A DNA stretch of 64,000 nt from NCBI RefSeq assembly GCF_007752135.1, contig NZ_CP036298.1, positions 1,302,001 to 1,366,000 on the forward strand, read 5' to 3'. Positions 45,053 through 57,602 of the stretch are shown piece after piece. Position 1 is the stretch's first letter. Every line of letters starts with the position of its first letter. The position numbers and the translations under genes are program-made. Origin of the DNA: Aureliella helgolandensis. GTDB taxonomy: Bacteria > Planctomycetota > Planctomycetia > Pirellulales > Pirellulaceae. The notes beneath the pieces were generated by a model that had not been told where the DNA came from, ran no database searches, and was given only the letters and a program-made list of their open reading frames with translations.

Positions 45053-46693
45053 CTAGTCGTCCACACTGGTTGTGCGACACGGCGTGGAAGTACCCAGGGT
45101 ATCGAACGTCAGCTCGAACCTCGCTAGATATTTGCGCAGGCGGTCCGCATCGTTCGGTTTGGCCTTTTCGAGACGGCTCACGGCAAAAAGGGTGCGGCCG
45201 GCATCGGACAGGGAATCAGACTCGCGGCAGACTCTCACGACATCCAGCAGTTGGGCCATTTCGAAGCGATCCAGAGCGGCTAACTGGATGGTGGACAGGA
45301 CGCTGCTCAGCTCAGAAGTCTGCAGGTCGGTGTCGCCGCCGTGGGGGGCGGCGGAGCCTCGCTGCCAAGCTTGCTTTAGTCGGGCGATCTCGTGCTCCAC
45401 ATCGACCACCGTAATGCGTCCTCCGTCGGCCAGCGTTGCCATGCGGGTTACGGCAGCGGTCAGATCGCGAAAGTTGCCGAGCCAACGCGCTTCGGAGCTG
45501 ACGGCGAACTGCATGAAAGTCTGCCGCGCCTCTTTGCCCATCGCCACCTTGCGACCTTCGGATGCCGCGAAACGCTCCAGTTCGTAATCGAGGTTCGGCT
45601 CGATATCCTCTCGGCGATCGATGAGCCCTGGCAGGTTAAACGTCCAGAGGTTGATGCGCGCGAGCAGATCCTCTCGGAAGGCCCCGCTGGCGACCGCCTG
45701 CTGCAAATCGCGATTGGTTCCCGCGATCAGCAGAAATTGGCTAATCGTTTCTCGGTCGGCGCCGACCGGAAGGTACTTCCGCTCCTCAATCGCTAGCAAC
45801 AACATGGCTTGCTCATCCAGACCGAGCTCACCGACTTCATCCAAAAACAGCATGCCGCCATGCGCCTCTTTGAGAAGCCCGGCGCGAGCGGTTTGAGCCC
45901 CGGTAAAAGCTCCCTTGGTGTGCCCGAATAGGGTCGACATCGCGCCATCTCCCCGCAGGGTTGCGCAGTTGACTTCGACAAGTCGACCCGCGAATTGAGC
46001 TCGTTGCCGCTTGAGTTCGTAGATTCGGCGAGCCAATTGCGTTTTGCCTGCCCCGGTCGGCCCGGTGAGCAGCACCGGAGCATTGCTTTGGATCGCGACC
46101 CGTTCGATACGATCGATAATGGTGTTGTAGTTTGCCGAACGCGTTGAAATGCCCGATTTCAGAAAGGCGCTGCCCGAATCATGCTCCACCTGAAAGCGGG
46201 CGGCAATGCGATCGTACTTGGAGAGATCCAAGTCGATCCGATTGTAGGTTCCCGGTCCCTCCCCCTTGCGCTTGGGCGGCGAAGCTTGCAGGAGTTGTCC
46301 TGGTAAGTGCCGCGATTCGCACAGCAGAAACATGCAGATCTGCTGGACATGCGTCCCAGTCGTGATATGCAGGAGCAGACGTTCTTTCTCGAGATCGCAG
46401 ACCAGCTCGGCAGCCAGATTGAATAGCGAATCGTAGGTGGATTCGAAATCCCAAGGATCCTTCAAATCCAGTAGGTGTAGCCGAACGGCTGTCTCGGGTG
46501 AGATTTGCTGGATATCCCGGCTTACCTGCTCGGCCAATCCGACGTCGCGCGGTAAATACAGCAGGTCGAATCGATCGACCAATAAGTCTTCATGCTGGCA
46601 AATCGCCACGCTGGGCCGCCACGCGTCCCAACGCCTGCCGCGCTGCCCCGCGTCGAGCCGGGAACCGAGGATGCCTAACACCACGTTCTTCAT
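45053..46693 (-). CDS. rtcR: RtcR, sigma-54-dependent activator of RNA repair genes
   Basis: The 546-aa protein has an N-terminal CARF-like sensor region (about residues 1-180, with TGTHVQQICMFLLCESRHLP) and a central AAA+ domain with the Walker A motif GPTGAGKTQLARRIYE, the sigma-54 contact loop GAFTGA, and the Walker B region GGMLFLDEVGELG. A C-terminal helical part may bind DNA. RtcR homologues activate rtcBA, found here divergent (rtcB starts 331 bp away). It starts at ATG 46693. The CARF-type sensor is thought to bind an RNA-derived ligand (RNA with 2',3'-cyclic phosphate), which is from family knowledge. Confidence 0.93.
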   Translation of the reverse strand: MKNVVLGILGSRLDAGQRGRRWDAWRPSVAICQHEDLLVDRFDLLYLPRDVGLAEQVSRDIQQISPETAVRLHLLDLKDPWDFESTYDSLFNLAAELVCDLEKERLLLHITTGTHVQQICMFLLCESRHLPGQLLQASPPKRKGEGPGTYNRIDLDLSKYDRIAARFQVEHDSGSAFLKSGISTRSANYNTIIDRIERVAIQSNAPVLLTGPTGAGKTQLARRIYELKRQRAQFAGRLVEVNCATLRGDGAMSTLFGHTKGAFTGAQTARAGLLKEAHGGMLFLDEVGELGLDEQAMLLLAIEERKYLPVGADRETISQFLLIAGTNRDLQQAVASGAFREDLLARINLWTFNLPGLIDRREDIEPNLDYELERFAASEGRKVAMGKEARQTFMQFAVSSEARWLGNFRDLTAAVTRMATLADGGRITVVDVEHEIARLKQAWQRGSAAPHGGDTDLQTSELSSVLSTIQLAALDRFEMAQLLDVVRVCRESDSLSDAGRTLFAVSRLEKAKPNDADRLRKYLARFELTFDTLGTSTPCRTTSVDD

Positions 46694-46843: not shown

Positions 46844-46859
46844 TGGCATGCGGCGTGCT
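46844..46859 (+). promoter_or_regulatory. Sigma-54 promoter of rtcBA
   Basis: TGGCATGCGGCGTGCT has the invariant GG and GC dinucleotides with exactly 10 bases between them and matches the consensus TGGCAC-N5-TTGC at most positions. It faces rtcB. Predicted transcription start is about 46870, giving a leader of about 154 nt. The presence of RtcR next door supports the call. Confidence 0.75.
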
Positions 46860-46891
46860 ACAGACGATTCTAAAGTCCCGCATGGGGCTAG

Positions 46892-46989
46892 TGCTTTGTC
46901 ACAGCTTAATTTTAGGGTTGCCCGGGAAAAGGTGTCGGACACCTTTTCCCAATGCATGCTGGACCCTAATTCTAAGTTGGGACACAGCA
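46892..46989. mobile_element. Palindromic MITE R2a in the rtcB leader
   Basis: 98 bp, almost fully self-complementary. Ends read TGCTTTGTCACAGCTTAA and, reversed, TGCTGTGTCCCAACTTAG; the centre is AAAAGGTGTCGGACACCTTTT. Flanks CTAG (46888-46891) and CTCG (46990-46993) suggest a 4-bp target duplication with one change. Related to the elements at about 50213 and 57313. Confidence 0.8.
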
Positions 46990-47023
46990 CTCGTATTCCA
47001 GCATTCTAAAAAAGGGAGAGTTT

Positions 47024-48517
47024 ATGTCAGCGTCCGAAGCCATTATCGCAACAGGCGAAGCCACGGGGATTTTGCCGACCGGCGCATCGCGGACACCCAT
47101 CACGGTGATCGGGACTCAAGCCATTCGCGAGACCTTCGATGATCTGTGTATTCAGCAAGCGATCAACAGTCGCAATGCACCGGGAGTCACACAAGTCGTA
47201 TTGAACCCAGATGCACACTGTGGTTACGGTGCGCCCATTGGGTGCGTGATGGTCTCGCCATCGCACATCTACCCAGGGCCCGTGGGCGTCGATATCAAGT
47301 GTTCGATGAGCCTCCTGCAGTTGGATATTCCCGCTGAGGAGATTGAGGATCGTCGCGTTCGTCGAGCGTTAATCGATGCAATTTGCGAGCGCACCCCCAC
47401 GGGGGCAGGACGGGGGGCACGCCACGTTGCCAAGGGCCGTGTCGTGGACGAGCGGCTAGGTGTCGAAGCGCTGGTGTCGGGTGCGAGCTTGTCGGTCTGT
47501 CAGCAGATGGGGATTCCTCCCGAATGGGCGGAGCGCTGTGAGGATTCCGCGCACCTCGCGCATGACCATACCGCAGACTCGCTCGCGATGCGGCTCGAAG
47601 AACTTCGCTTTCGCAATGCCTTTCCGAATTTTTGCCAGAAGATCCATCAGTTGGGATCCTATGGTGGTGGAAACCACTTTGGAGAGTGCGAGGTCGTCGA
47701 GCTTCGAGATCGAGAGCCAGACACGCTTCAGGCAGCCAACGCGTTTGGTTTGCGAGATGGCCATGTCGCCTTCCTTTCCCACTGTGGTTCCCGTGGGATT
47801 GGTCATCAGTTGGCGATGGGGCAGTTCCGTGAATTGCAGTGCAAGTTCGCCGAGTGGGGGATTCCCCTGCCAGGCGGCGATCGTGAACTGGTGTATGCGC
47901 CGTTGGGTTCTCCTGAAGCCGATGCCTACATTGACGACATGTCCTTGGGAGCAAACTTTGCCACGGTCAATCATCTAATGATCAACGCCTTGGTCTTGGA
48001 GGCGTTTCAAGAAGTGCTGCCAGGCTGCACGGGAAGCTTGGTCTACTTCATCAGTCACAACATTGCTCGCAAGGAGATTGTCGATCATCGGCCGGCATGG
48101 GTTCACCGCAAGGGAGCGACGCGCGCCTTCCCAGCGGGCCATCATGCGTTGGCGGACACGCCGTTTGCGGAAACTGGGCATCCCATCCTGTTGCCCGGGA
48201 ACCCGCAAGCCGGCTCGAGTGTCATGGTTGCGACGCAAGGGGCGGAGAAGAGCTGTTACAGTGTGAATCATGGTGCCGGACGTCGACTGGGCCGCAAGCG
48301 AGCCATTCGAGAGTTGGATCAAAAAGCGGTGGACCAGTCCTTTGACGCGGCTGACATCCTGACGAACTGTCGCCAGTACCCACGAGATGAAGCCCCCGCT
48401 ACCTATAAGGATTTCGAGGAGGTGTTGCGAAGTGTGGAGAAGGCGGATCTTGCCCGAGAGGTCGCTCGGCTGCGGGCTAAATTTGTGATTAAGGATGGGA
48501 GTGCTGCGGATGATTGA
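47024..48517 (+). CDS. rtcB: RtcB, RNA ligase (2',3'-cyclic phosphate/5'-OH)
   Basis: The 497-aa protein is a full RtcB, the GTP-dependent ligase that joins RNA 2',3'-cyclic phosphate or 3'-phosphate ends to 5'-OH ends. Signature regions are PDAHCGYGAPIGCVMV, GVDIKCSMSL with the metal-binding Cys, GGGNHFGECEVVEL, LSHCGSRGIGHQLAMG and YSVNHGAGRRLGRKRAI with the guanylylated His. It is cytoplasmic and manganese dependent in characterised members. An AGGGAGAG ribosome site precedes ATG 47024. The protein is somewhat longer than the E. coli enzyme. It overlaps rtcA and is expected to be transcribed from the sigma-54 promoter. Confidence 0.96.
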   Translation: MSASEAIIATGEATGILPTGASRTPITVIGTQAIRETFDDLCIQQAINSRNAPGVTQVVLNPDAHCGYGAPIGCVMVSPSHIYPGPVGVDIKCSMSLLQLDIPAEEIEDRRVRRALIDAICERTPTGAGRGARHVAKGRVVDERLGVEALVSGASLSVCQQMGIPPEWAERCEDSAHLAHDHTADSLAMRLEELRFRNAFPNFCQKIHQLGSYGGGNHFGECEVVELRDREPDTLQAANAFGLRDGHVAFLSHCGSRGIGHQLAMGQFRELQCKFAEWGIPLPGGDRELVYAPLGSPEADAYIDDMSLGANFATVNHLMINALVLEAFQEVLPGCTGSLVYFISHNIARKEIVDHRPAWVHRKGATRAFPAGHHALADTPFAETGHPILLPGNPQAGSSVMVATQGAEKSCYSVNHGAGRRLGRKRAIRELDQKAVDQSFDAADILTNCRQYPRDEAPATYKDFEEVLRSVEKADLAREVARLRAKFVIKDGSAADD

Positions 48518-49574
48518 GCCAAGGTGTGACGAACTGTTGGAAATCGACGGTGCGACCGGCGAGGGGGGCGGGCAAATTGTCCGCACTTCGCTGGGGCTGT
48601 CGATGGTGACGGGGCGTCCTGTCCGCATTGAAAATATTCGCGCTCGCAGAAATAAGCCAGGGCTCATGCGCCAACACTTGACTGCCTTACTCGCAGCTCA
48701 AGAAATCTGCAGTGCTCGGGTCGAAGGGGCAGAGGTTGAGAGCACGACGGTCCATTTTCAACCGGGAGAGCCGCGCGGCGGGGATTACGAGTACCACGTG
48801 GGCTCTGCCGGAAGTGCCACACTGGTATTGCAAACCATCTTGCCCGCTCTGCTGACTGTCGCATCACCTAGTCGCTTGACGCTGAGTGGTGGAACGCACA
48901 ATCCGTGGGCTCCGCCCTTTGACTTTTTGGACAAGAGCTTCCTGCCCTTGGTGAGTCGTCTGGGGCCGCAGGTCTCCGCGGAATTGAAACGTTTTGGGTT
49001 CTATCCGGCCGGAGGTGGCGTCTTGGAAATCGCTATTGATCCGGCCGAGAGATTGCAGCCGTTCGACCTACTCGAGCGTGGATCGCAGACGACCCACATG
49101 GTGCAAGCCGTTGTTTCTGATCTGCCTGCGGAGATTGGGAGGCGAGAGTTGTCGATCGCGGTCCGTCGCTTGGGATGGGAGGAGCACGACGGGGAGCTGG
49201 TGCATCGAGAACAGGGAGACGGCCCTGGGAACGTGCTGATGATCCAAGCGGAGTTCGAGCAGCTCAATTGCGTCTTCACCGCCTTTGGTCGTGTGGGTGT
49301 TTCCGGTGAGCAAGTCGCTCGCGACGTCGTGAAGCAATATCGTCGTTATGAGAAGTTCGGTGCCGTGGTGGATGAGCACTTGTGCGACCAATGGATGCTG
49401 CTCTTGGGACTCGCCGTCGCTAGTTCAGGAACGTCTGCAGCCTTCTTGACGAGCCCCTTGTCGCGGCATAGCCAGACGCAACGGGAATTGATTGAGCGTT
49501 TTTTACCCGTTGAATTTCAAACGGCACCGCAAGGTGCGGCGAGCTGTGTTACTTGCCGCCGCCTCCCGGAGTAG
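48510..49574 (+). CDS. rtcA: RtcA, RNA 3'-terminal phosphate cyclase
   Basis: The 354-aa protein converts RNA 3'-phosphate into 2',3'-cyclic phosphate with ATP. Family segments are EIDGATGEGGGQIVRTSLGL, IRARRNKPGLMRQHL, AGSATLVLQTILPALL, GGTHNPWAPPFDFLD and DEHLCDQWMLLLGLA with the active-site His. I choose ATG 48510 (overlapping the rtcB stop) because GGGAG sits 8 bases before it; the ATG at 48495 is also open. It is the second gene of the rtcBA operon and should work on ends repaired with RtcB. Confidence 0.95.
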   Translation: MIEPRCDELLEIDGATGEGGGQIVRTSLGLSMVTGRPVRIENIRARRNKPGLMRQHLTALLAAQEICSARVEGAEVESTTVHFQPGEPRGGDYEYHVGSAGSATLVLQTILPALLTVASPSRLTLSGGTHNPWAPPFDFLDKSFLPLVSRLGPQVSAELKRFGFYPAGGGVLEIAIDPAERLQPFDLLERGSQTTHMVQAVVSDLPAEIGRRELSIAVRRLGWEEHDGELVHREQGDGPGNVLMIQAEFEQLNCVFTAFGRVGVSGEQVARDVVKQYRRYEKFGAVVDEHLCDQWMLLLGLAVASSGTSAAFLTSPLSRHSQTQRELIERFLPVEFQTAPQGAASCVTCRRLPE

Positions 49575-50290: not shown

Positions 50291-50331
50291 GGCCTCGTAA
50301 GGGGACTTGCCACTTGCTGGGCACTACTCCT

Positions 50332-57308: not shown

Positions 57309-57602
57309 CTAGTGCATTGTCAAAGCTTAACGGGCTGTTGAAATAGTAACCCGCCGCGTGAGCAAGGGAAGATAACCTCCGCTACAGGCCAACTAAGGAT
57401 GCTACCTCCGCATTAAAATTCAAATTGCGATTAAATCAACAGCCCGTTAATGTTCGGGTTGCCCGGAAATTCGGGTTGCCCGGAAAAAGGTGTCCGACAC
57501 CAAAATCCGGAACGGCCCTTCGGGTGCTTTGCACTTTTGGTGTCGGACACCTTTTTCCGAACGCTCGCTAAACCCTACTTCTTAGTCTTGGCAATGCACT
57601 AG
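57309..57602. mobile_element. Palindromic MITE R2b with CTAG duplication, inserted in the transposase remnant
   Basis: CTAG flanks both ends (57309-57312 and 57599-57602). Ends read TGCATTGTCAAAGCTTAA and, reversed, TGCATTGCCAAGACTAAG. Inside are AAAAAGGTGTCCGACACC and, after a spacer, GGTGTCGGACACCTTTTT, giving a long stem with a 40-nt loop. Without copy D it is about 166 bp, longer than R2a. The empty site reconstructs the transposase reading (CATGCTCCTAGTCGCTG). Confidence 0.85.
57331..57446 (+). mobile_element. Copy D of the ~117-bp MITE, nested in R2b
   Basis: 116 bp with ends CGGGCTGTTGA/TCAACAGCCCG and a perfect TTAA duplication on both sides (57327-57330, 57447-57450). Nearly identical to copy C. 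It was inserted in the left arm of R2b, so it is the most recent of the three layers. Confidence 0.92.

Follow-up and report, generated by a model that had tools for sequence, protein, structure and literature searches.

RtcR-controlled RNA repair operons of the rtcBA and rsr-yrlBA-rtcBA types have a divergent rtcR gene, a sigma-54 type promoter and rtcB followed by rtcA, and RtcR is expected to bind upstream of the promoter. The locus described here, from Aureliella helgolandensis, has the same layout; it differs in that its leader appears to be lengthened by a mobile element and in that inspection by eye showed no rsr in the interval from promoter to rtcB and no Y RNA passed the Rfam threshold in the window (the whole 64,000-nucleotide stretch of DNA that was analysed). 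The element resembles the miniature inverted-repeat elements (MITEs) of the IS630/Tc1-mariner group in its CTAG edges, its length of 98 bp, its lack of a transposase and the match of its ends to those of IS630-type insertion sequences (ISs) from the same bacterial family. Unlike them, it lies in a genome with no detected IS630-type transposase, and its middle is a REP-like palindrome, not a piece of such an IS. The Correia/NEMIS elements of Neisseria are likewise short mobile palindromes that adjoin genes and become part of mRNAs; they are not known to be related to the element at rtcB. For transcripts that carry them, RNase III processing is reported in the available part of PMC10969869 and proposed in that of PMC2229807. 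A further parallel is ISRm22, an IS4-family element of Sinorhizobium meliloti that is found inserted in a repeated palindrome (the available part of PMC1525189 gives nine copies in its text and tabulates 10 of 10); an IS4-family element also occupies a repeated palindrome here, in 11 of 12 copies, but the palindrome is a different one and in many cases has an IS630-like shell around it. None of the layers is new in kind, these being an IS630-type MITE, a REP-like palindrome and a palindrome-targeting IS4 element. No description of this nesting, or of core exchange within one shell, was found in the open-licence literature, including the available parts of PMC3733652 and PMC1525189, and none was found there that treats Pirellulaceae, insertion sequences and palindromic repeats together.

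The features of the locus are as follows (window coordinates):

45053–46693, minus strand: rtcR, divergent from rtcB; sigma-54 activator of the RNA repair operon
46844–46859, plus strand: sigma-54 (-24/-12) type promoter TGGCATGCGGCGTGCT, facing rtcB, GG-N10-GC by sequence
46888–46891, no strand: CTAG, left edge of the element; putative TA or CTAG target duplication
46892–46989, plus strand: 98-bp composite MITE, an IS630-like shell (about 30 bp per end) around a palindromic core
46924–46950, no strand: core palindrome GGGAAAAGGTGTC-G-GACACCTTTTCCC, which holds the 11-bp IS4-family target GTGTCGGACAC
46990–46993, no strand: CTCG, right edge of the element, equal to CTAG with one change
47024–48517, plus strand: rtcB (Pfam RtcB, 5.2e-102)
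48495–49574, plus strand: rtcA (Pfam RTC, 7.4e-76; RTC_insert, 1.2e-09)
57309–57602, plus strand: second, larger family member, 294 bp with CTAG edges and two core palindromes

The rtcR product matched Pfam RtcR (7.6e-73) and Sigma54_activat (1.8e-47) in a profile search and scored 769 bits against NCBIfam NF038308, for which the cut-off is 650. With RtcR, RtcB, RtcA and a predicted sigma-54 promoter between rtcR and rtcB all present, the locus has the make-up of an RtcR-controlled rtcBA operon. Inspection of the window's open reading frames by eye showed no rsr gene between the promoter and rtcB. A search of the window with Rfam brought up no Y RNA family above threshold; at the gathering threshold it returned two tRNAs alone, both far from the rtcBA locus.

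The initial annotation had placed a palindromic MITE in the rtcBA leader, downstream of a sigma-54 promoter, and its structural description largely holds. The GG-N10-GC promoter facing rtcB is confirmed (GG at 46845–46846, GC at 46857–46858) and has counterparts in 19 other rtcR-rtcB loci; the sequence likewise bears out the limits of the element, its CTAG and CTCG bounds and its place between the promoter and the rtcB ATG. Its assignment as a MITE is supported by a dispersed repeat family that includes a 96% copy in the same genome, and the 98-bp length, the terminal inverted repeats, the dispersed relatives and the absence of a transposase are those of a MITE. From the promoter we infer a transcription start near 46870, so that the mRNA would have some 18 nt ahead of the element and 30 nt between it and the rtcB ATG; a small second hairpin (46874–46889) precedes the element. 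The description of the element as almost fully self-complementary was somewhat strong: its minimum-energy fold (−46.4 kcal/mol for the element alone) has 37 pairs, that is, 74 of 98 bases, and 54 of 98 positions are identical to its own reverse complement when compared without gaps, the pairing being perfect only in the core, where two 13-nt arms are separated by 1 nt. The leader (46870–47060) has a predicted folding energy of −67.7 kcal/mol (z = −4.14), and a single shuffle in 200 did as well; this fold and the repeat nature of the element go beyond what chance would give.

A search of 241 family genomes showed RtcR in 30, one of these being the window's own locus; three of the others (L089, L102 and L106) had no usable leader, and the remaining 26 RtcR-linked leaders were compared, with start codons picked by hand (that of L097 is wrongly placed). 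In 19 of the 26, rtcB adjoins rtcR with a GG-N10-GC promoter between them (16 recognized by signature words; L079, L082 and L088 by eye). The distance from the promoter start to the hand-chosen rtcB start codon is 59–139 bp in these 19 loci, and at most 67 bp in 13 of them. In the window it is 180 bp, falling to 78 bp on removal of the element with one 4-bp flank. The lowest fold z score among the 26 other leaders is −2.21 (L094), against −4.04 for the window under the same script, and no conserved structured leader was found among them. In the first 400 nt of the 26 other upstream regions, no match to the shell end has fewer than 7 mismatches in 22, compared with 0 and 5 for the two ends in the window (in L092 and L108 the promoter lies beyond the 400 nt scanned, but these have short leaders of 38 and 36 nt). 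Since the other rtcB leaders are usually shorter and not notably structured, the window's leader appears to have been lengthened by insertion. The sole same-genus rtcR locus besides that of the window (G001) stops at a contig end and offers no empty site. A scan of genome contigs for RtcR gave 20 loci, none near enough for an empty-site comparison (the best, from Adhaeretor mobilis, at 62% identity); promoter-to-ORF distances at these 20 are left out, as automatic picks that are often wrong.

At ten loci (L097, L103, L104, L105, L108, L153–L155, L159 and L160) the neighbour of RtcR is not rtcB but an Rsr/Ro60-like gene, and a sigma-54 type promoter separates the two; a TROVE domain was found in the Rsr/Ro60-like gene of L103, and those of the other loci were recognized by eye from their N-terminal sequence.

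The element belongs to a dispersed family. Its own genome (8.44 Mb, one contig) contains 91 matches to it, a figure that includes the element itself, halves and reverse-strand matches; among them is one near full-length copy (96% over 104 bp). Of the 16 short copies besides the rtcB element with both ends seen, 14 are 156–174 bp long, one is 106 bp and one is 294 bp with edges. The ends of the related copies in this genome nearly all begin with CTAG, and a few differ, like the CTCG at rtcB; because CTAG is palindromic, a target duplication and a terminal repeat look the same at the element edges. Elsewhere in the window, solo or degenerate ends like the right end of the element occur near 50291 and 26875, both on the minus strand. 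Across the family, with at most three candidates scored per genome, matches to the element at E ≤ 0.001 occur in 53 of 241 genomes. Among the matches listed, the element ends are matched in at least 45 of the 241 genomes, its own included, and internal sequence alone in eight (G027, G158, G179, G181, G219, G234, G242 and G246); the first 29 nt are matched at 100% in two genomes of one other genus.

Ends of this kind also occur on a 1234-bp IS (L191/L203) from the same bacterial family, whose transposase ORF scores 127 bits against NCBIfam IS630 (cut-off 100) and whose ends differ from the shell motif by 3 mismatches in 44; at E ≤ 1e-20, 32 of the 241 family genomes hold a match to this transposase. 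Taking a 28-nt shell motif from the element's own left end, the two ends of the element show 0 and 7 mismatches. Paired ends (at most 13 mismatches in 44) were found at 10 of 30 fetched IS630-type loci and in none of 150 mononucleotide shuffles, and in a second control of 30 rtcB loci the one match was the window's own locus, which carries the element; on these counts the shell is read as IS630-derived. Neither the L191 transposase query nor PF13358 gave any match in the element's own genome (G000), the latter giving matches in 3 of 14 in a control. A parent transposase in the same genome is usual for such MITEs, though not strictly needed. The element is therefore probably an orphan in this genome, its putative parent being known from other genera.

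A short pair of such ends was present at 18 of 29 loci from other genomes, and when these 18 and the rtcB element are sorted roughly, by the 11-mers that their middles share, 11 groups result. Across L174–L202, a single IS630-like shell encloses many different palindromic cores, which vary among genera.

The core leads a life of its own. The palindrome GGTGTCGGACACC (GGTGTCNGACACC) has 60 sites per strand in the element's own genome against one for a reversed control pattern, each site being counted on both strands, as befits a palindrome, and longer elements holding two. At 11 of 15 further core loci, no 14-nt shell end lies within 4 mismatches on either side, and the core is therefore an independent repeat; as a short repeated palindrome that is also found alone, it is REP-like. 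A Y1_Tnp (RAYT-like) gene is found about 330 bp away from one core copy (L241/L137, G000:C1:5957227-5957239 and 5957567-5957905), which does no more than suggest a REP/RAYT pair with this gene as candidate mobiliser of the core.

The third layer is an IS4-family element, present in the same genome in 12 copies (L141–L152) of 1523–1529 bp. Eleven have an open transposase 99–100% identical to the query and one has three stops; the same search also listed another piece of the copy with stops, along with a 38% homologue and a short match at 56%. Given the near-identity of the 11 open transposases, the element has probably been active recently. It has its own ends, GAATGGCACTTAATCGGC, and lies within the core palindrome in 11 of 12 copies, the twelfth being beside a degenerate one. 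GTGTCSGACAC flanks it on both sides in 10 of 12 copies, identically so in nine; in L145 one base is changed on one side of the IS, and L144, the twelfth copy, is bordered by an altered palindrome on just one side. L149 (G000:C1:6763616-6764989 plus flanks) is an IS copy with the core region at either end, as if duplicated or recombined. The element at rtcB carries an intact GTGTCGGACAC; given where 11 of the 12 copies sit, the rtcB leader holds a potential landing site for the IS4-family element.

We consider it most probable (roughly 0.8) that a non-autonomous mobile element inserted in the rtcBA leader and has been tolerated there, and that it is not a dedicated control device of the RNA repair enzymes. 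The element would have entered a CTAG in a short rtcBA leader, its ends resembling those of IS630-family ISs of the same bacterial family and its middle a genome-wide REP-like palindrome. The promoter and all sequence upstream of it are untouched. The insertion would have left both this promoter and the downstream ribosome-binding site intact, and it may have been tolerated because neither was disturbed. With a start near 46870, the rtcBA mRNA would carry the hairpin, and any effect on expression would be a generic 5′-hairpin one, either slower decay from the 5′ end or RNase III processing of the kind described for Correia elements. Such an insertion explains the hairpin without a new regulatory RNA, and offers a natural experiment in how much a strong leader hairpin matters in an RNA-repair operon.

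The initial annotation had proposed that the hairpin may regulate the operon or serve RtcB and RtcA as a substrate for cleavage, repair and feedback; both roles are unsupported, and a tolerated insertion fits best. Established here are the position and repeat nature of the element, the ends it shares with its relatives and its absence from the other RtcR-linked leaders compared. That the hairpin now works in rtcBA control, as a 5′ stabiliser or an RNase III target that sets the mRNA level on induction, seems improbable. It is long, stable and close to the inferred 5′ end, and RNase III cleavage of Correia-bearing transcripts provides the precedent cited above; the single close sibling stands 28 nt before the ATG of another gene, whose 460-aa product has HAD-hydrolase and META domains, and is oriented like the rtcB element, for which the gap is 30 nt. 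Such placement shortly before a start codon might reflect selection for position (n = 2), and is the one observation that would favour a function in the leader, although two cases do not make a pattern. Against such control, the element is absent from the other leaders, none of which folds unusually well, and the ribosome-binding site is predicted to be as accessible with the hairpin as without it (mean predicted unpaired probability from −16 to the ATG of 0.61 and 0.64, respectively). We think it unlikely that the core is a weak intrinsic terminator by which the element attenuates rtcBA transcription. An A-tract, stem and T-tract are laid out as in a two-way terminator, and nine of 19 short elements in the same genome lie between convergent genes (by crude ORF calls), but a terminator scan did not flag the core, its T-run is of four and is followed by CCC, and the surrounding stem pairs the T-tract.

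Far less credible is a feedback sensor in which RtcB and RtcA cut and reseal the leader hairpin, for which nothing was found beyond the function of the two genes, and against which stands the nature of the element as a dispersed mobile repeat without conservation at rtcB. The feedback idea also faces a chemical problem, in that the enzyme most expected to cut a long hairpin, RNase III, produces 5′-phosphate and 3′-OH ends, which RtcB does not join. The element was at first read as a miniature form of the 1.5-kb IS4-family IS, since several matches have that IS enclosed by the same outer ends; the junctions show instead that this IS, with ends of its own, is inserted in the core palindrome, and we reject that reading. 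More speculative than the tolerated insertion, and doubtful as a whole, is the proposal of a modular family in which one IS630-like shell, spread over many genera, carries interchangeable palindromic cores, with the core serving here as an IS4 landing pad, such that rtcBA could be switched by the arrival or loss of a 1.5-kb IS. If it is true, an insertion target lies inside the leader of a stress operon.

The genome holds a three-layer stack of mobile DNA, with an IS630-like shell, a REP-like core and a core-targeting IS4-family element, and the occurrence of one shell with many palindromic cores may interest students of REP and MITE origins. At four places in the same genome (G000:C1:503536, 2585986, 3005039 and 8045401), the CTAG edge of a copy appears, by crude ORF calls, to supply the TAG stop of a neighbouring ORF.
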